Shown here: piece after piece, positions 39,531 through 48,895 of the stretch | Position numbering within the stretch: position 1 is the stretch's first letter | How the letters are laid out: every line of letters begins with the position of its first letter | Assembly (NCBI GenBank): GCA_023511455.1 | Contig: JAIMBJ010000025.1 | Coordinates: 1-53,788, forward strand | Direction: 5' to 3' | Length of the DNA stretch: 53,788 nucleotides | Source of the DNA: Bacillota bacterium | GTDB taxonomy: Bacteria; Armatimonadota; HRBIN16 | The notes under the pieces: generated by a model | Seen by the model: only the letters and a program-made list of their open reading frames with translations | Databases searched by the model: none | Told to the model about the DNA's origin: nothing | Program-made: the position numbers and the translations under genes

Positions 39531-40796
39531 TTAAATCAGCGGCGTCTTGCCCGGCATTGCTACCTCATCCACCGGCATATCGCCGAACTGGGTCAGGTTC
39601 TTAACCAGGTTCAGTTTGGACTCCTTCAGCGCGAAGTGCCACGTCACCTCCTGTCCGGTGTATGCCGCCATCCGTCCCATAATGGCGGTCAGCGTGCTCA
39701 GCGCGACCTGCTCACCCTCGTTCAGCGGCTTGCCTTCGCGGATGCTGTTGATGAGGTCGGTATGCTCCTGCACGTAGGGGTTATTGCCGCCCTCGTTGCG
39801 CCACTGAACCTTGCCGCGAATCCAGCCAGCAGGGTCGGACACGCCCTCCGTGCCGATGACGTATTCACCCACGCGGTTAGCACAGCCGTCAATCTGCCGG
39901 CACATGCTCAGCACGCGCACACCTCCCGGATACTCATACTCGATGGCGAAGTGGTCGTAGATGTGACCGTATGCCGGGTCAGTGCGCACCTGCCGCCCGC
40001 CCATGCCAATGCACTTCACGGGATAGGCTTGCAGTACCCAGTTGATGACGTCCAGGTTGTGGATGTGCTGTTCCACAATGTGGTCGCCGGACAGCCAGGT
40101 GAAGTACAGCCAGTTGCGAATTTGCCACTCGATATCGCTCATGCCCGGCTGCCTGTCCCACTTCCACAAACCGCCCTGGTTCCAGTAGCACTGCGCCGCC
40201 ACGATTTTGCCAATCGCTCCGTCATGGATGCGCTTGATGGTCTCAATGTAGCCTTTCTGGTGCCTGCGCTGCGTACCAGCCACCACGCCCAGCCCCTTTT
40301 GCTTTGCCAGATTGGCGGCTTCCAGCACCATACGCACCCCAGTGGGGCAGACGGCGACGGGCTTCTCCATAAACACGTGCTTGCCCGCCTCCACCGCCGC
40401 TTTGAAATGAATGGGGCGAAAGCCCGGCGGCTCTGCCAGTATGACCATATCCACGCCGCTGTGGATGACTTTCAGGTAGTTGTCGAAGCCCCAGAAGACG
40501 CGCTCACGGGTGACCTTAAAGCGGTCGCCAAGGTTCTGCAGGCTATTGAACGCGCCTTCCGCACGGTCCTGGAACAGGTCGCCCAGTGCCCAGATTTCCA
40601 CGTTGGGCGCGGCGTTGACGGCATCACGGGCAGCTCCGGTGCCGCGCCCACCACATCCGATGACGCCGACCCGGATGCGGTCACTACCCTGCGCCCAGGC
40701 GTAGTTCCAGCCCAGCACACCCGACGCCAGCGCTACCGTGCCAGCGCCCAGCGAGGTTTTCAGGAAGTCCCTGCGGGTGACGTTTCTGCGTTTCAT
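39531..40796 (-). CDS. Tat-exported Gfo/Idh/MocA-family oxidoreductase, paralogue 1
   Basis: 421 residues. Twin-arginine signal VTRRDFLKTSLGAGTVAL ending at AWAQ, then a Rossmann NAD(P) domain (RIRVGVIGCGGRGTGAARDA), the EKPVAV segment, the family GVVAGTQRRHQKGYIETIKR, and a C-terminal beta-sheet domain ending in QEVTWHFALKESKLNLVKNL. Relatives such as glucose-fructose oxidoreductase fold with the cofactor before export. Substrate unknown. Three ATG codons run together after AAGGAGG; the third (40796) is best spaced. Close paralogue of the next gene. Confidence 0.88.
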   Translation of the reverse strand: MKRRNVTRRDFLKTSLGAGTVALASGVLGWNYAWAQGSDRIRVGVIGCGGRGTGAARDAVNAAPNVEIWALGDLFQDRAEGAFNSLQNLGDRFKVTRERVFWGFDNYLKVIHSGVDMVILAEPPGFRPIHFKAAVEAGKHVFMEKPVAVCPTGVRMVLEAANLAKQKGLGVVAGTQRRHQKGYIETIKRIHDGAIGKIVAAQCYWNQGGLWKWDRQPGMSDIEWQIRNWLYFTWLSGDHIVEQHIHNLDVINWVLQAYPVKCIGMGGRQVRTDPAYGHIYDHFAIEYEYPGGVRVLSMCRQIDGCANRVGEYVIGTEGVSDPAGWIRGKVQWRNEGGNNPYVQEHTDLINSIREGKPLNEGEQVALSTLTAIMGRMAAYTGQEVTWHFALKESKLNLVKNLTQFGDMPVDEVAMPGKTPLI

Positions 40797-40853
40797 CATC
40801 ATCGCCTCCTTAAGGATTAAATCTGTTCGAACGCTTTGTCTGTGCAAGGCAAC

Positions 40854-40916
40854 GAGATGCTTCGCTATTGCTCAGCATGACAGCGACATGTCATTCTGAG
40901 CAACGCGAAGAATCTC
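40854..40916. repeat. Imperfect inverted repeat between the two Gfo/Idh/MocA genes
   Basis: Left arm 40854-40882 and right arm 40889-40916 are nearly perfect complements (29 and 28 bases, differing by a few bases and one indel). The right arm contains TGTCATTCTGAGC and GAAGAATCTC. Sequences of this kind (TGTCATTCTGAGCGAAG...) recur between genes in many bacterial genomes. Confidence 0.7.
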
Positions 40917-40974
40917 CATACCCATTCGCCAGCGCACAGGGTGGCGCAACCGGGCCCAACTGGTCAAAGCCTCC

Positions 40975-42246
40975 TCACACCAGCGGCGTCTTGCCCGGCA
41001 TTGCCACCTCATCTACCGGCATCTCACCGAAAGCGGTCACGTTGCGCACCAGGTTCAGCTTCGACTCTTTCAGTGCAAACTCCCACGTGACCTCCTGACC
41101 GGTGTATGCCGCCATGCGTCCCATGATGGCGGTCAGTGTGCTTTCAGCGACCTGCACACCTTCGTTAATCGGCTTGCCCGCGCGCACGCTGGCTATCAGG
41201 TCGGCGTGTTCCTGCACATAGGGGTTAGCCCGCCCCTCCCAGCGCCAGTTCTCCTTGCCGCGCACCCAGAAGGTGTCGAACCCCTCCAGTTTCGCCTGCC
41301 CTTCGGTGCCGATGACCTGATTGGTCACCCGGTTCAGGCAACCGTCCATTTGTCGGCACATGGCGGTGACCCGTGCGCCGTTGGGATACACGTACTCGAT
41401 GGCGAAGTGGTCATAGATGTGACCGTATGCCGGGTCGGTGCGCACCTGCCGCCCGCCCATGCCGATACACCGCTCCGGCGGCGAGCCCATCACCCAGTTC
41501 ATGACGTCGATGTTATGCACGAACTGTTCCACGATGTGGTCGCCGGACAGCCAGGTGAAGTACAGCCAGTTGCGGATTTGCCACTCGATATCGCTCATGC
41601 CGGGCTGGCGGTCCCACTTCCACAGCCCGCCGGTCAGGTAGTAGGCATACGCCGCCACCACCTTGCCGATGGAACCACCGTGGATGCGTTGGATGGTCTC
41701 GATGTATCCCGGATGGTGGCGGTACTGCGTACCGGCGACCACCCCCAGCTTCTTCTGTTCCGCCTGTTTCGCTGCCGCGATGATCATCCGCACGCCTTCG
41801 GGGCAAACGGCGACGGGTTTCTCCATAAACACATGCTTGCCTGCTTCCACCGCTGCCTGAAAGTGGATCGGGCGAAAACCGGGCGGGGTGGCGAGCAGCA
41901 CGTAGTCCACGCCGCTGTCTATCACGCGCTTGTAGGCATCAAAGCCCACAAAGCACCTGCTGTCGGTCACCTTCATTTTATTGCCCAGGTTCGCCAGCGA
42001 CCGGCGGCAATTGTCCAGCCTGTCCTGGAATAGGTCACCCAGCGCCCAGATTTCCACGCCCTCGGCAGCACTGGCGGCGTCACGCGCGGCGCCCGTACCG
42101 CGTCCGCCGCAGCCGATAAGGCCCACCCGAATACGGTCGCTACCCTGTGCCCAGGCGTAGTTCCAGCCCAGTGCGCTGGCAGTGATGACAGTAGCCCCTG
42201 CGCTCTTCAGGAACTGTCGTCGTGAGAGATGGCGATTATGCTGCAT
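40975..42246 (-). CDS. Tat-exported Gfo/Idh/MocA-family oxidoreductase, paralogue 2
   Basis: 423 residues with LSRRQFLKSAGATVITASAL, AWAQ cleavage, RIRVGLIGCGGRGTGAARDA, EKPVAV, KLGVVAGTQYRHHPGYIETI and the same QEVTWEFALKESKLNLVRNV ending. It shares most motifs with paralogue 1 and the last residues (AMPGKTPL), so the pair arose by duplication. AGGAGGT stands seven bases before the ATG at 42246. It follows the GH9 gene by 16 bases, which links it to carbohydrate use. Confidence 0.9.
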   Translation of the reverse strand: MQHNRHLSRRQFLKSAGATVITASALGWNYAWAQGSDRIRVGLIGCGGRGTGAARDAASAAEGVEIWALGDLFQDRLDNCRRSLANLGNKMKVTDSRCFVGFDAYKRVIDSGVDYVLLATPPGFRPIHFQAAVEAGKHVFMEKPVAVCPEGVRMIIAAAKQAEQKKLGVVAGTQYRHHPGYIETIQRIHGGSIGKVVAAYAYYLTGGLWKWDRQPGMSDIEWQIRNWLYFTWLSGDHIVEQFVHNIDVMNWVMGSPPERCIGMGGRQVRTDPAYGHIYDHFAIEYVYPNGARVTAMCRQMDGCLNRVTNQVIGTEGQAKLEGFDTFWVRGKENWRWEGRANPYVQEHADLIASVRAGKPINEGVQVAESTLTAIMGRMAAYTGQEVTWEFALKESKLNLVRNVTAFGEMPVDEVAMPGKTPLV

Positions 42247-42262
42247 GGTAACACCTCCTGTA

Positions 42263-44464
42263 TCAGCGATGTATCGCCGAGAAGTAGCCCGCCAGAAAGA
42301 CCAGTGGGGCATTGTAGTAAATAGCAGGCTCCGTTAGAGTCCAGTTGTTCGGGTCTGGACGGAAATGCTTCGATGGATAGGCGGAGATTCCGCGCGACTC
42401 CCACTGGTTGACCCCTCCGGGCACGACGCCGGGTGGAGTGGGCAGTCTTGCCGCAGCCGAGCGTCCATAAATGGTGTGGTAAATCGTCGTGACGCGCGAA
42501 CCGTACCCTGTCACCATGCTGGTGGCTACTGCGTTTCTGCCCAGCAAGTAGTGCAAAGCGTCCTCCGCCAACCGGACATACTCCTCCTTCGGGACGAACC
42601 GATTCGCCAGCAGGGTGTAGTAGCCCATCTTGGCGATAATCTGGTTGGAGCTCCAGCAGTAATGGTCAGAGTTCCAAAGCGGCACGGAATGGGCATCCGT
42701 TCGCCACGCTTGCACGGCGCGGTCTGCCAGCTCCAGCCAGTAGGCACGTGCTTTCTGGCGCAGTCCGCCACCTTCTCGCTGTGAAAGCGCCAGCACGCCT
42801 ACCGAGCAGTCATACACCGCCCACATCAGCGTGTCCGCGACTGCCATCTGTCGCCGTTCACGCAGTAATTCGTCCAGCGCGCGCTCCGCGGCCTTTCGGT
42901 ACTCCTCCTCACCGGTGGTATCCCACAACGGTGCCGCGGCTGTCAGCAGATGTTCAGGCTTCGCCCCATCGGCGAAAAGACGCCTCCACGCCAGTCTTGC
43001 CGCCTCCAGATAACGCTGCGCCTTCGCACGCAGGGCGGGTATGGTGGCAAAGGTGCGCGCCGCGCGAGCCCATACGGCAGCGCATACCGCCGTTGCCTCC
43101 TGCGTGGGGGGGAGCAGGCGGCGTTCCTCCTGCAGCCACTCGGTGGTCTGCCGTCGGGGTGCTGCGCTCTCGTGCAGACGGTCATACACCGCCCCTGCCT
43201 GCGCGCCCTCGCGAATCTGCATCTTCAGTAGCCAGTCGAGCTCCCATGCCGCTTCGTCCAGAATATCTGGAATGCCGTTACCCGATTCGGGAATGTTCAG
43301 CTGCCCATCGGTAAACGCTTCCGGCTTCAGGTCGTACAGGTCGAGCATGAAGAACAGTGCATGGCGCACCCACGGAGGATATTTGTTGCAGTCGCCCGCG
43401 TCATGCCAGCCGCCAGTGACATCGCGCGGGTCCTTGCCCTCGCGCGTTACCGCCTGCTTGTCTCCGAGGTGACAGAGTGGACGGGCATAGTCACCCGCAT
43501 ATTGTTTCGTGAGCTCGATGTTGCAGCGTTGCAGGTAATAGAAACGCACCGCGTCCACGAAGAGCCTGTCGTAGATGCCCTCACGGATTTCAAAAGCTGG
43601 CGAAGGTTCCATGCCCTCCGCCTCGATGCGGTACTTGCCCGGCTGCCTGAGCGCGCTGAAATCCGCCTCGTAAACTGTATCGCCCGACACCGGGTCGTTC
43701 TCCTTAACCAGGCGCGCTGCGCCCTCGTAGACTACCTTGCCCGAATCCGCTTCCACCACACGAAACCGTTTCACTGGCGCACTGATTTTGGCAATCTTTA
43801 CCATGCGCGGCAGGTAGCCCAGTTGATTCACCTTGATGGGCGGATGTTGCCGTTCGGGCGACGTGGTGACGAAGCGAATCTGCCGAAGATAGAAGGTCAT
43901 CGGGCGCGCCTCACCTTCGTTGAGCACGACCACCTTGATGCAGTCGTCCAGTTCCACCCCTGAAGAATCACGAACAAGGTCGGCGATGGGAATACGCACC
44001 TTTTGCCAGTTGGTAGATACCCGGACATAGCGAGAGATAGGCACGACCGCGTTGACATCGGTGTCTGGTCCCGCGCTATCCCGGTCCGAGTCGGCAAAAC
44101 CGATGCGAAACGCCTCACCGCCAGCCTCGCCCTTTACTTCGAACTCCATCACACCGTCCGGCAGGTAGTCGTCCAGATACCAGCGCACCCAGCCTCGTCG
44201 CGCCAGACCGATGCCCCAGTTGCCCCCTGTACCGGCAACCCGCACCTGAATAGCAGGCTGTCCGTCCACCTGCACCACCGGTACCTGTCCGTTCACGTTC
44301 GCAACGACACATCCCCCGTTCGCAAACTGGTACCCGTCCGAATAGGCAGGCGGGGAAAGCGTGTCCACAATGGCAGTAACACGCTGAGGTGCCCTGATAG
44401 ACTCGGATTGCGCACACCCTGCCACCACAACAATCCACACCATCAACGCAAGAATCCACCGCAT
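42263..44464 (-). CDS. GH9 glycoside hydrolase lipoprotein
   Basis: 733 residues. Lipoprotein signal with lipobox VAGC near residue 17. Then a carbohydrate-binding-like beta-sandwich (about 35-205), a CelD_N Ig-like domain beginning IKVNQLGYLPRMVKIAKISA, and the (alpha/alpha)6 GH9 barrel: GGWHDAGDCNKYPPWVRHAL (catalytic Asp pair), NIPESGNGIPDILDEAAWEL, and NNWTLTEPAIYYNAPLVFLA (acid Glu). GH9 enzymes are inverting endo- or exo-glucanases or glucosaminidases; here the substrate is unproven. It is attached to a membrane facing the outside of the cytoplasm. Confidence 0.9.
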   Translation of the reverse strand: MRWILALMVWIVVVAGCAQSESIRAPQRVTAIVDTLSPPAYSDGYQFANGGCVVANVNGQVPVVQVDGQPAIQVRVAGTGGNWGIGLARRGWVRWYLDDYLPDGVMEFEVKGEAGGEAFRIGFADSDRDSAGPDTDVNAVVPISRYVRVSTNWQKVRIPIADLVRDSSGVELDDCIKVVVLNEGEARPMTFYLRQIRFVTTSPERQHPPIKVNQLGYLPRMVKIAKISAPVKRFRVVEADSGKVVYEGAARLVKENDPVSGDTVYEADFSALRQPGKYRIEAEGMEPSPAFEIREGIYDRLFVDAVRFYYLQRCNIELTKQYAGDYARPLCHLGDKQAVTREGKDPRDVTGGWHDAGDCNKYPPWVRHALFFMLDLYDLKPEAFTDGQLNIPESGNGIPDILDEAAWELDWLLKMQIREGAQAGAVYDRLHESAAPRRQTTEWLQEERRLLPPTQEATAVCAAVWARAARTFATIPALRAKAQRYLEAARLAWRRLFADGAKPEHLLTAAAPLWDTTGEEEYRKAAERALDELLRERRQMAVADTLMWAVYDCSVGVLALSQREGGGLRQKARAYWLELADRAVQAWRTDAHSVPLWNSDHYCWSSNQIIAKMGYYTLLANRFVPKEEYVRLAEDALHYLLGRNAVATSMVTGYGSRVTTIYHTIYGRSAAARLPTPPGVVPGGVNQWESRGISAYPSKHFRPDPNNWTLTEPAIYYNAPLVFLAGYFSAIHR

Positions 44465-44581
44465 CTTTCCGTGCCTCCGGTTTATTCTTCGCCAGAGGAA
44501 GCCGTTTTCCTGCGCCCCAAACTGTCTAAAGGAGAGGCAGTCAGAGCCGTCGAATGAAAAGATAAGGGGGTGAAACTACCG

Positions 44582-45694
44582 ATGCAATCACCGGTCTGGC
44601 AGCTACGGTTGTCCTGGAGCGATGACCCAAAAACCACCATGAGTATCACCTGGCAGAGCCGGGAGCCGCTATCGCAGCCAACGGTGCATTACGGCGAGGG
44701 CGGTGCGTTGTCGCAAACCGCTGCGGCGCGACGGATTCGCTACGCACAGGAAACGGGTCCGCTCTATCAGGTTACCCTGTGCAACCTGAATCCGGGTGCT
44801 ACTTACTCCTACCGTGTGGGCGACGCTGGCAAGGGATGGAGCGAGGCACACACCTTCCGAACCGCTCCGGCAGCGCCCCCTGCCCGCTTCGTGTTCACCG
44901 CTTTTGCCGACCACGGCGTGACTCCCGCTGCGAAGCAGAACGTGCGTCGCGTGCTGGCAGGAGAAAAGCCGGCTTTTCACCTCATCATGGGCGACCTCTC
45001 CTACGCCAACGGCAACCAGCCCATCTGGGACGACTGGTTCGAACTGCTGGAACCGCTGGCATCACAAGTGCCTGTGATGGTATGTCCCGGCAACCACGAA
45101 GACGAGCGTGACATCCGCTTTGCGACCTATCTGGCTCGGTTTGCTCTGCCCGAGAAGGAGCTGTACTACCGCTTCGACTACGGCAACACCCGCTTCATCC
45201 TGTTCAACTCGCAGGACTTCCGTGATGCGGAGCAGCTGCGCTGGTTCGAAAGGGAACTCCGTGAAGCCCGACGCGACTCCACAGTGCGCTGGGTTATCGT
45301 GGCGATGCATCACCCGCTGTATAGCTCCACCGTCAGGCGCCTGAACGACACCGCGCGCATCGCGGTACTGCAACCGCTGTTCGACAAATACCGCCCAGAT
45401 TTGGTGCTGCTTGGACATCACCACAATTACGAGCGCACCTACCCTCTGCTGGGCGGCAAGCCTGTGGTGCGCCATCCGAACCGCTACCGGCGAGGGCAGG
45501 GCGTCATCTACGTCACCAGCGGGGGCGGCGGCAAGTCGCTGTACGATCTGACCCCCGAACAACCAGCCTTCACTGCCAAACGCGAGAAATGCTACCAGTA
45601 CCTGCGCATCACTGTTTCCGACAAATCACTGCGGGTAGAATGCCATCGTACGGAGGATAACAGTCTTCTGGAACGGTTCGAAATCGTGCGCTAA
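44582..45694 (+). CDS. Purple acid phosphatase-type metallophosphoesterase
   Basis: 370 residues. An N-terminal fibronectin-III-like domain (TMSITWQSREPLSQPTVHYG, YQVTLCNLNPGATYSYRVGD) and a metallophosphatase core: FTAFADHG, IMGDLSYANGNQ, CPGNHEDERD, VIVAMHHPLYSS and LGHHHNYERTYPL. All metal ligands appear to be present. The usual signal peptide is absent from this start, so it would be cytoplasmic unless the true start is upstream, and no upstream frame adds one. ATG 44582 is preferred over GTG 44570, because GGGGG lies at a normal distance. Likely cotranscribed with the two frames that follow. Confidence 0.88.
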   Translation: MQSPVWQLRLSWSDDPKTTMSITWQSREPLSQPTVHYGEGGALSQTAAARRIRYAQETGPLYQVTLCNLNPGATYSYRVGDAGKGWSEAHTFRTAPAAPPARFVFTAFADHGVTPAAKQNVRRVLAGEKPAFHLIMGDLSYANGNQPIWDDWFELLEPLASQVPVMVCPGNHEDERDIRFATYLARFALPEKELYYRFDYGNTRFILFNSQDFRDAEQLRWFERELREARRDSTVRWVIVAMHHPLYSSTVRRLNDTARIAVLQPLFDKYRPDLVLLGHHHNYERTYPLLGGKPVVRHPNRYRRGQGVIYVTSGGGGKSLYDLTPEQPAFTAKREKCYQYLRITVSDKSLRVECHRTEDNSLLERFEIVR

Positions 45695-45711: not shown

Positions 45712-46674
45712 ATGTCCGACTACATTCCTGTGGACCTGACGGCGCAGGCGAACGTGGGCGTTGCGTTCTACGAGAGTATGCCTGCGCCTTTGCTGGGCGA
45801 GCAGACCTTTCACGGTCTCCCGTTTCGCATCGGGAGCTCCCCCGAGAGGTGCTTTCTCGGCTTCGGCACGCCGGAGCTGCGGAGTGCGCGTTCTATACCC
45901 ATCGGCAACACGGCGCGTCATGTGATTTTCGCGCACGTCCTGCTGGAATCGCGTCTCTTCGAGGGGGAACCCGTCGGGCGAGTGATTGCCCACTACGTGT
46001 TTTGCTATGAGGACGGTGAAGAGGTGCGCGTGCCCATTCGCGAGCGGTTCGAAATCGCCAGCGCACCAGCGCCCTGGGGGACACAGCCTTTCCTCGCGTA
46101 TCCTGACATGAAAGATAGTCTGATGCCACGTGCGGAGGGACGTTGGGACAGTATGGGATTGCGACAGACGGAAGCGCTGGCGGGACATCCGCACAGCTAT
46201 TACCTGTGGGCGTGGCAGAACCCCCATCCCGAAAAGCCCATTCAGGCGATACGCATCGAGCCGGGCGACCGCAAGTTTCTCATCGCTGCCATCACGTTGG
46301 GACAGGTTGAGGAGTATCCGTTTGTGCGCACAGGGCGAGTACCGGTCAAGATTACTCTGCGCCGTGAGGAAGACGCGCGACAACCTTTCGCGCTGCAGGT
46401 GGACGTGGACCGGGGCGTGGCGACCTATGTGTACGCTCTGCCACAGGCACCCCCTGAAGAGTTCCTCCGCGCGCCGCTCAAAGGCTGGGGCGAGGAGCAA
46501 AACACAACCAACAGCCCGGCATACGTGGAAATCGCCGCCATCCCCTCGGCGACGGTGACGGTGAAAAACGGTGAAGAGCCTCTGGGCAGCGCAAATTGGG
46601 GCGAACTGCAACGGACGGGGCGCGCAGAGACACCGCGCGTGCAGCTGGAGGTGGTGGACAGGGGCAAGAACTAG
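45712..46674 (+). pseudogene. N-terminal part of a CehA/McbA-type metallohydrolase (stopped by an amber codon)
   Basis: 320 residues of beta-rich sequence, opening SDYIPVDLTAQANVGVAFYE and including NTARHVIFAHVLLESRL and HPHSYYLWAWQNPHPEKP. It ends in VQLEVVDRGKN-TAG. The next frame is the same frame and begins at the very next codon, with VHVTVVDDATGKPVPCRVHF continuing the same beta-sandwich. The N-terminal region and metal-dependent domain are expected as one protein. Either this is a truncated separate chain or half of one gene. Starts 17 bases after the phosphatase. Confidence 0.6.
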
Positions 46675-48201
46675 GTGCACGTGACGGTGGTGGACGATGC
46701 AACAGGCAAGCCCGTGCCCTGCCGGGTGCACTTCCGCTCGCCGGAAGGTATCCCTTATCAACCACACGGGCACCATGACCATGTGAACTCCAATCTGAAC
46801 ACCTGGCATGTGGACGTGGGCGGCGACCTGCGCTTGGGGCAGATTACCTACGCCTACATCGACGGAACCTGTCAGGGCTGGCTGCCGCGTGGGGAGGTGC
46901 TGGTAGACATCGCACGGGGCTATGAGTACGAGCCACTGCGTAGCCGCGTGTACATCGCTCCGGGTCAACGGGAGCTGACACTGCGCCTCAAACGATGGAC
47001 GGATATGAACGCGCGGCGATGGTTCAGCGGCGACTCGCATGTGCATTTTCTGGGCACACAGGGGGCGCATCTCGAAGCGCAGGGCGAGGACCTGAACGTG
47101 GTGAACCTGTTGCAGTCGCAGTGGGGACATCTCTTCACCAACACAGAGGATTTCATCGGCGAGCCGACGGTGAGCAACAGGGGGCGCACCATCGTCTATT
47201 GCTCGCAGGAGAACCGTCAGCACGTGCTGGGGCACCTTATCCTGTGGGGGCTGAAGCGAGCGGTAATGCCCTGGTGTACTGCTGGACCCGACGAAGCGGA
47301 GCTGGGAGGCACACTGGAAGAGACGCTGGCGCACTGGGCAGACCGCTGTCATGAGCAGGGAGGCACGGTCATCATTCCCCACTTCCCGTTTCCTAACGGC
47401 GAACCGGCGGTGTTAATCGCCACCGGCAGAGCGGATGCACTGGAGATGATCGGTTTCGATAACTTCCAGCACCGTGAGTATTACCGTTACCTGAACTGCG
47501 GCTATCGCCTGCCCCTGGTGGGTGGGACCGACAAGATGAGCAGCGAGGTGGCGGTAGGGCAGTACCGCACCTACGCTTACATCCCGCCCGAGGAGGAGTT
47601 CACCTACGAGAACTGGTGCAAAGCGGTGCGTGCGGGCAGGACGTTCCTCAGCGGTGGCGCGCTCATCCATTTTAGCGTGGAAGATGCGCAAATCGGCGAC
47701 ACACTAAGGCTGCCATCGGGCGGCGGCATGGTGGAGGTAGAAGCCGTTGCCGAGTCCATCTTCCCCATCCACACGCTGCAGATTGTACAGCAGGGGCAGG
47801 TAGTGGCATCCGTGGACGAGCCGAAAGGAGCCAATCGCCTGCAACTGAAGACCAGACTGCGTGTGACGGGTAACACCTGGATGGCAGCACGCTGTGCCGG
47901 ACCCAACTACACCGCGGTGCCCCACTTTGATGTCTGGCGCAGGGGCGTGTTCGCACACACATCCCCCATTTACATCGCCTGTGGCGACCGCTGGAGTCTC
48001 TTTGACCGCGGGACGGCGCAATACATGCTCACGCTGATAGAAGGCGGTCTCGCCTACATCCGCGAGAAGGCGGCACACCATCCATCGCATCACGTGACAC
48101 ACCACCATGGGGAAGACGACCATTTCGCCTATCTGGAACGCCCCTTCCGCGAGGCGATAGAAGCCATCCACCGACGGATGCATGAGGAGTTCAGAAGTTA
48201 A
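46675..48201 (+). CDS. CehA/McbA-family metallohydrolase (PHP-like), C-terminal part
   Basis: 508 residues. HVTVVDDATGKPVPCRVHFR is followed by GHHDHVNSNLNTWHVDVGGD, then a PHP-type metal site: WFSGDSHVHFLGTQGAHLEA, GGTVIIPHFPFPNGE, NFQHREYYRYLNCGYRLPLV and GGTDKMSSEVAVGQYRTYA. CehA/McbA proteins hydrolyse carbamates and esters in characterised cases; most members are untested. GTG at 46675 directly follows a TAG in the same frame and has no ribosome-binding site of its own, so translation probably depends on read-through, re-initiation, or the TAG being an error. Confidence 0.8.
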   Translation: MHVTVVDDATGKPVPCRVHFRSPEGIPYQPHGHHDHVNSNLNTWHVDVGGDLRLGQITYAYIDGTCQGWLPRGEVLVDIARGYEYEPLRSRVYIAPGQRELTLRLKRWTDMNARRWFSGDSHVHFLGTQGAHLEAQGEDLNVVNLLQSQWGHLFTNTEDFIGEPTVSNRGRTIVYCSQENRQHVLGHLILWGLKRAVMPWCTAGPDEAELGGTLEETLAHWADRCHEQGGTVIIPHFPFPNGEPAVLIATGRADALEMIGFDNFQHREYYRYLNCGYRLPLVGGTDKMSSEVAVGQYRTYAYIPPEEEFTYENWCKAVRAGRTFLSGGALIHFSVEDAQIGDTLRLPSGGGMVEVEAVAESIFPIHTLQIVQQGQVVASVDEPKGANRLQLKTRLRVTGNTWMAARCAGPNYTAVPHFDVWRRGVFAHTSPIYIACGDRWSLFDRGTAQYMLTLIEGGLAYIREKAAHHPSHHVTHHHGEDDHFAYLERPFREAIEAIHRRMHEEFRS

Positions 48202-48250
48202 AGAGTGGTGGAGCGAGCGGTGACTGTGGTATCATGGTCAAGGGGGATGC

Positions 48251-48475
48251 ATGATGAGCACTATCAATATCCCTGTGGATGCAAACACGGCGAAGCTTTA
48301 TGCAGAGGCTTCTGAAGACATGCAGGCAAAGCTGCAGTTCCTTCTCAGCCTCTGGTTACGAGAGTATCTCTTTTCAACTCGCTCGCTCCCAGAAATCATG
48401 GACGAGATCGGTCGAAAAGCAGAGCAACGTGGCTTGACGCCAGAGATTCTGGAGTCCCTACTGAATGCAGAGTGA
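48251..48475 (+). CDS. Antitoxin-like partner of a PIN-domain toxin
   Basis: 74 residues: a short strand (TINIPVDANTAKLYAEASED) then helices (MQAKLQFLLSLWLREYLF, PEIMDEIGRKAEQRGLTPEI). Small proteins of this plan sit directly before PIN toxins. Either ATG 48251 or 48254 may be used after AAGGGGG. It overlaps the toxin frame by 11 bases, the usual coupling. Confidence 0.7.
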   Translation: MMSTINIPVDANTAKLYAEASEDMQAKLQFLLSLWLREYLFSTRSLPEIMDEIGRKAEQRGLTPEILESLLNAE

Positions 48476-48895
48476 CCTGCGTTTTGTCTTCGACACCAAT
48501 GTTTTGGTGAGCGCGCTTTTGCTCAGACGTTCGGTAGCTCGCCAGTCTCTCGACAAAGCGCTGCAATATGGAAAACTGCTGGTCTCGCGGGATACTGTGG
48601 AGGAGTTAAATTCTGTCTTGGGCGAAAGGGCTTCGAGATTTACGTCACCGAAGAAGAGCGCATGGAGTTCGTCAGCGCGTTTGTTCGGCACGGAGAGTGG
48701 GTTGAAATAGCAGAAAGGTTAGATGTATGCCGTGATCCAAAAGACAACATGTTTCTGGAATTGGCTGTGAGCGGCAACGCTTTTTGCATCGTCACTGGCG
48801 ATGACGACCTGCTAGCTTTGCGTTCTTTTCGCGGTGTAAAGATTATGACGCCAAGGCAATTTGTCGAACACCCACTAACTGGCACGGGCAATTAG
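48465..48895 (+). pseudogene. PIN-domain toxin, frameshifted
   Basis: The first frame gives RFVFDTNVLVSALLLRRSVA and LVSRDTVEELNSVLG, with the first acidic site (FDTN) of a PIN nuclease. At GGG 48621-48623 the frame breaks; the other frame continues RKGFEIYVTEEERMEFVSAF then VCRDPKDNMFLELAVSGNAF and CIVTGDDDLLALRSFRG, with the remaining acidic residues. One missing base (for example a G in GGGG) restores a full 140-residue toxin. With this break the RNase would be inactive, leaving an orphan antitoxin. Could be a sequencing error in a G run. Confidence 0.75.

Follow-up and report, generated by a model that had tools for sequence, protein, structure and literature searches.

The CehA/McbA family (NF038032) is named after the carbaryl hydrolases CehA and McbA. 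Internal stop codons in bacterial genes have been considered from several sides. Spurious stops are common in assemblies, depending on the assembler and on coverage, and many "pseudogenes" with a single stop are assembly artefacts (Cooley and Wright 2024, PMC11017572). On the other hand, many single in-frame stops of bacteria are read through according to Belinky et al. (2021, PMC7918605), who counted only stops common to two or more genomes. A tRNA-Trp with a 4-bp anticodon stem raises the reading of UGA (PMC13092985). Here, a CehA/McbA-family gene broken by one amber codon is compared with these systems.

The window, a stretch of 53,788 nt, is contig 25 of a 3.85-Mb draft genome (73 contigs, estimated 99% complete). 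On its plus strand, a first frame of 320 aa (positions 45712-46671) begins with ATG 45712, downstream from a strong Shine-Dalgarno (SD) sequence (AAAGGAGGG). A second frame of 508 aa (46675-48201; coding 46675-48198, TAA 48199-48201) opens with GTG 46675, directly 3' of an in-frame TAG at 46672-46674. The two frames share one register and the TAG is their sole separation, exactly as described in an earlier, sequence-only reading of the locus. That reading gave the restored protein as 830 residues, a figure that includes the final stop; the actual read-through length is 829. A search of the genome at E <= 0.001 found no second copy of the gene.

A purple acid phosphatase-like gene (44570-45694, plus strand; PF16656, PF00149, PF14008) lies upstream, with 17 bp between its end and the ATG. 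Since sister genomes retain the pair, the two genes probably form one operon. On the minus strand, a GH9 cellulase gene (42263-44464; CelD_N, GH9, CBM30) is absent from the corresponding site of the sister genome, where about 170 bp separate window positions 42261 and 44612; two tandem paralogues beyond it (39534-42249, minus strand), about 72% identical, are both kept there. On the other side, a small antitoxin-like gene (48251-48475) precedes a PIN_3 toxin gene that occupies two frames, 48465-48710 (PIN_3 positions 1-62) and 48662-48892 (positions 78-113), with an apparent frameshift around 48617-48630. The toxin-antitoxin cassette (48250-48879) is absent from the sister species, in whose sequence (G007) the matches to 48249 and 48880 are about 17 bp apart.

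To establish the ancestry of the two frames, relatives were drawn from 60 related genomes and from a set of Bacteria and Archaea in which each species was represented by one genome. Removal of duplicates left 87 distinct loci, the comparison being limited to those that cover the junction. All of them continue across it in one open frame, usually of 830-880 aa, and 87/87 have TGG (Trp) where this gene has the TAG. These loci span Armatimonadota, Poribacteria, Chloroflexi/SAR202, Planctomycetota, Latescibacterota, Lentisphaerae, Gemmatimonadetes and others; the near relatives in public records are Armatimonadetes MAGs. In an alignment of 29 sequences W321 is an invariant column, set in the motif (D)RGKNWVHV. 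TGG also occupies the site in the closest species (96-97% protein identity), to which the 829 codons of the gene align without gaps, as do the 3.6 kb around the gene. The two halves of the interrupted protein align end to end with the single-chain orthologues, bearing out the continuity across the TAG proposed from the sequence. Altogether, these data strongly support the view that the two frames are halves of one single-chain gene split by a single amber codon; the orthologues are all single-chain, and a consistent two-gene pattern was not seen. With TGG at the site in all relatives, the lesion is one G-to-A transition, from the invariant TGG of Trp321 to TAG. It also disposes of TAC, which had been put forward as the codon that would restore the frame.

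The product appears as a single-chain predicted metallohydrolase of the CehA/McbA family (PHP-fold-like), encoded by 829 codons. Its N-terminal 320 residues are conserved in all single-chain orthologues and have no match in Pfam or NCBIfam. The second frame starts with a beta-rich segment, followed by a CehA/McbA-family metallohydrolase domain (NF038032, E 4.9e-44). The C-terminal part covers positions 1-314 of the 315 in the NF038032 model and scores 151 bits as the second frame and 150.2 bits within the read-through protein, against a curated cut-off of 80 bits; all 29 aligned orthologues match the model as well. Residues D441, H443, H445, H504, H508, H557 and D607 are invariant in the 29 sequences, this gene included, and are likely metal ligands, the first three as D441-x-H443-x-H445. 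The catalytic part lies entirely 3' of the stop. In an AlphaFold model of the read-through protein (mean pLDDT 83, pTM 0.78), the stop falls at the first strand (residues 319-328) of the beta segment preceding the catalytic domain, placing the split at a domain border.

Relative to the nearest species, dN/dS is 0.067 before the stop and 0.044 after it. With four other congeneric species used to polarise the changes, the part past the stop was found to have accumulated 8 nonsynonymous and 46 synonymous changes on this lineage, resembling the 6 and 38 of the sister lineage; relaxed selection was tested for and not seen. About 100-140 nonsynonymous changes would be expected had this part been neutral over the whole branch, and neutral decay can have occupied at most about 5-8% of it (95% limit). 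The codons past the stop are under strong purifying selection, in a gene that appears otherwise intact. A progressive pseudogene is ruled out by these ratios, and decay is conceivable only if the lesion is very recent. The confinement of neutrality to so small a fraction of the branch means that the lesion is very recent, or unreal, or that the protein is still made somehow.

The sequence-only reading had named sequence error and recent nonsense mutation among its options, and these are still the right pair. We favor, at a probability of roughly one half, a nonsense mutation that is genuine and very recent, or else a strain variant caught in the assembly. One G-to-A transition would have turned the invariant TGG into TAG; translation would end once the N-terminal 320 residues are made, and there would be little or no synthesis of the catalytic part. 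Both the reality of the change and the loss of the enzyme are inferred. In the last 20 kb of the window, which was compared with the sister genome, the other genes common to both are intact, which argues that the assembly is not broadly error-ridden there. Two considerations weigh on the opposite side: absence of decay is as compatible with an error as with a recent event, and the frameshifted PIN gene about 2 kb away could hint at local sequence errors.

The second of the two options is an error of base calling, assembly or strain consensus, in an organism whose gene really carries TGG and whose product is a single protein of 829 residues. We regard this as a serious contender, albeit at somewhat under even odds. 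The assembly is a draft in 73 contigs, decay is seen nowhere else in the gene, the altered position is invariant in 87 loci, and a second broken gene, that of the PIN toxin, is nearby; moreover, false internal stops are of the kind that assemblies commonly produce (PMC11017572). Yet the intact state of the neighboring genes common to the sister genome speaks against it, and so does a survey of other stops. In an 854-kb sample, made of 20-kb stretches of the genome with the window included, 64 same-frame stop junctions with coding-like flanks were listed (not checked singly), most of them with a start codon just past the stop. Four junction pairs without a nearby Met were scanned with Pfam: two had differing families on each side (DeoC/RecO and TGT/HD); of the others, one had a family on a single side and the last had none. 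The junctions of the sample looked mostly like ordinary gene borders, giving no sign of many false stops.

Next to be weighed is a fission of the gene, in which ribosomes re-initiate at the GTG touching the TAG and produce either two cooperating polypeptides or a working C-terminal enzyme. The second frame had been said to have no ribosome-binding site. This was too strong: a weak SD-like stretch, AGGGG (46660-46664, plus strand), lies 10 nt before GTG 46675, and its pairing with the anti-SD sequence (-6.1 kcal/mol) is close to the median of putative ATG starts in the genome (-6.3). The stretch is uninformative all the same, because 20% of internal in-frame GTG codons reach the same level of pairing; it also sits within the conserved coding motif DRGKN and so belongs to the protein. 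Besides the adjacency of TAG and GTG, re-initiation would be in keeping with the position of the break, at the first strand of the C-terminal beta segment in the model, and with low dN/dS on either side of the stop, although recency explains the latter too. A distant stand-alone homologue of the C-terminal half, L017:1342-2799 (G014:C72), shares 29% identity and has a Met close to where the second frame begins. Among near relatives, however, none is split, all 87 loci being single-chain. Although possible, re-initiation at this GTG has no support, and we consider the fission as a whole very improbable. The more specific proposal of a fresh fission, with the TAG-GTG at the domain border yielding a working two-polypeptide enzyme that matches the architecture of L017, is if anything slightly less credible.

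Equally slim are the prospects that amber read-through or suppression yields the full-length protein in the organism. The persistence of purifying selection past the stop would suit such a mechanism, as would the precedents of Belinky et al. (PMC7918605). The decoding apparatus argues otherwise. RF1 (prfA) is present (529 bits) and TAG terminates 130 of the 413 long frames in the 854-kb sample, about 31%. No CUA anticodon occurs among the 43 tRNA matches found, a draft set that is incomplete, since tRNA-Tyr and tRNA-Ile(GAU) were not found. One tRNA-like match among them (L155, 34.5 bits), not called by ARAGORN, was judged by eye to be a truncated tRNA-Gly(CCC), not CUA. Matches to PylS in the genome were all sub-threshold. 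A short-stem tRNA-Trp was ruled out, the anticodon stem here being of the normal 5 bp. On the strength of RF1, TAG usage, tRNAs and PylS, a dedicated amber suppressor or pyrrolysine system was rejected, and dedicated amber suppression is unlikely. None of the relatives has a stop at the site (0/87 loci), and a stop common to several genomes is the criterion by which Belinky et al. excluded errors. The programmed read-through or suppression that the sequence-only reading had entertained thus finds no support, and there was no sign of TAG read as sense in this genome. Finally, two separate genes with their own starts are ruled out by the 87 single-chain loci.

The main consequence is for annotation, which should list a single interrupted CehA/McbA-family gene here in place of two. 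A real stop would mean that an otherwise strongly constrained enzyme has only just been lost, or only just divided, in this lineage; an erroneous one would make the locus a case of a false pseudogene arising in a draft assembly.

Among solved structures, the best high-probability fold found by Foldseek for the catalytic region is the PHP-fold endonuclease Q (PDB 5zb8 and 7k30; probability 1.00, E about 2e-4 to 4e-4). Over some 250 alignment columns, identity to it is only 11-12% and the TM-score is at most 0.34, so that the resemblance is one of fold level, not of family membership. Foldseek matches outside the PHP region were long and of low probability or low TM, and were set aside; a sequence search of the PDB with the second half gave no match. 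Closer is the relation to the CehA/McbA family, in which the GDSHVHFL motif of this protein resembles the PHP-type D-x-H-x-H; this likeness does not imply carbamate hydrolysis. The gene departs from the family in being interrupted and in carrying a 320-aa N-terminal part that falls outside any named family. As to the interruption, we found no sign of a special decoding system. The stop is known in a single genome, unlike those in the set of Belinky et al.; the locus resembles the single-stop interrupted genes of PMC11017572 and PMC7918605 in having one in-frame stop, a frame otherwise intact and a low dN/dS past the stop.
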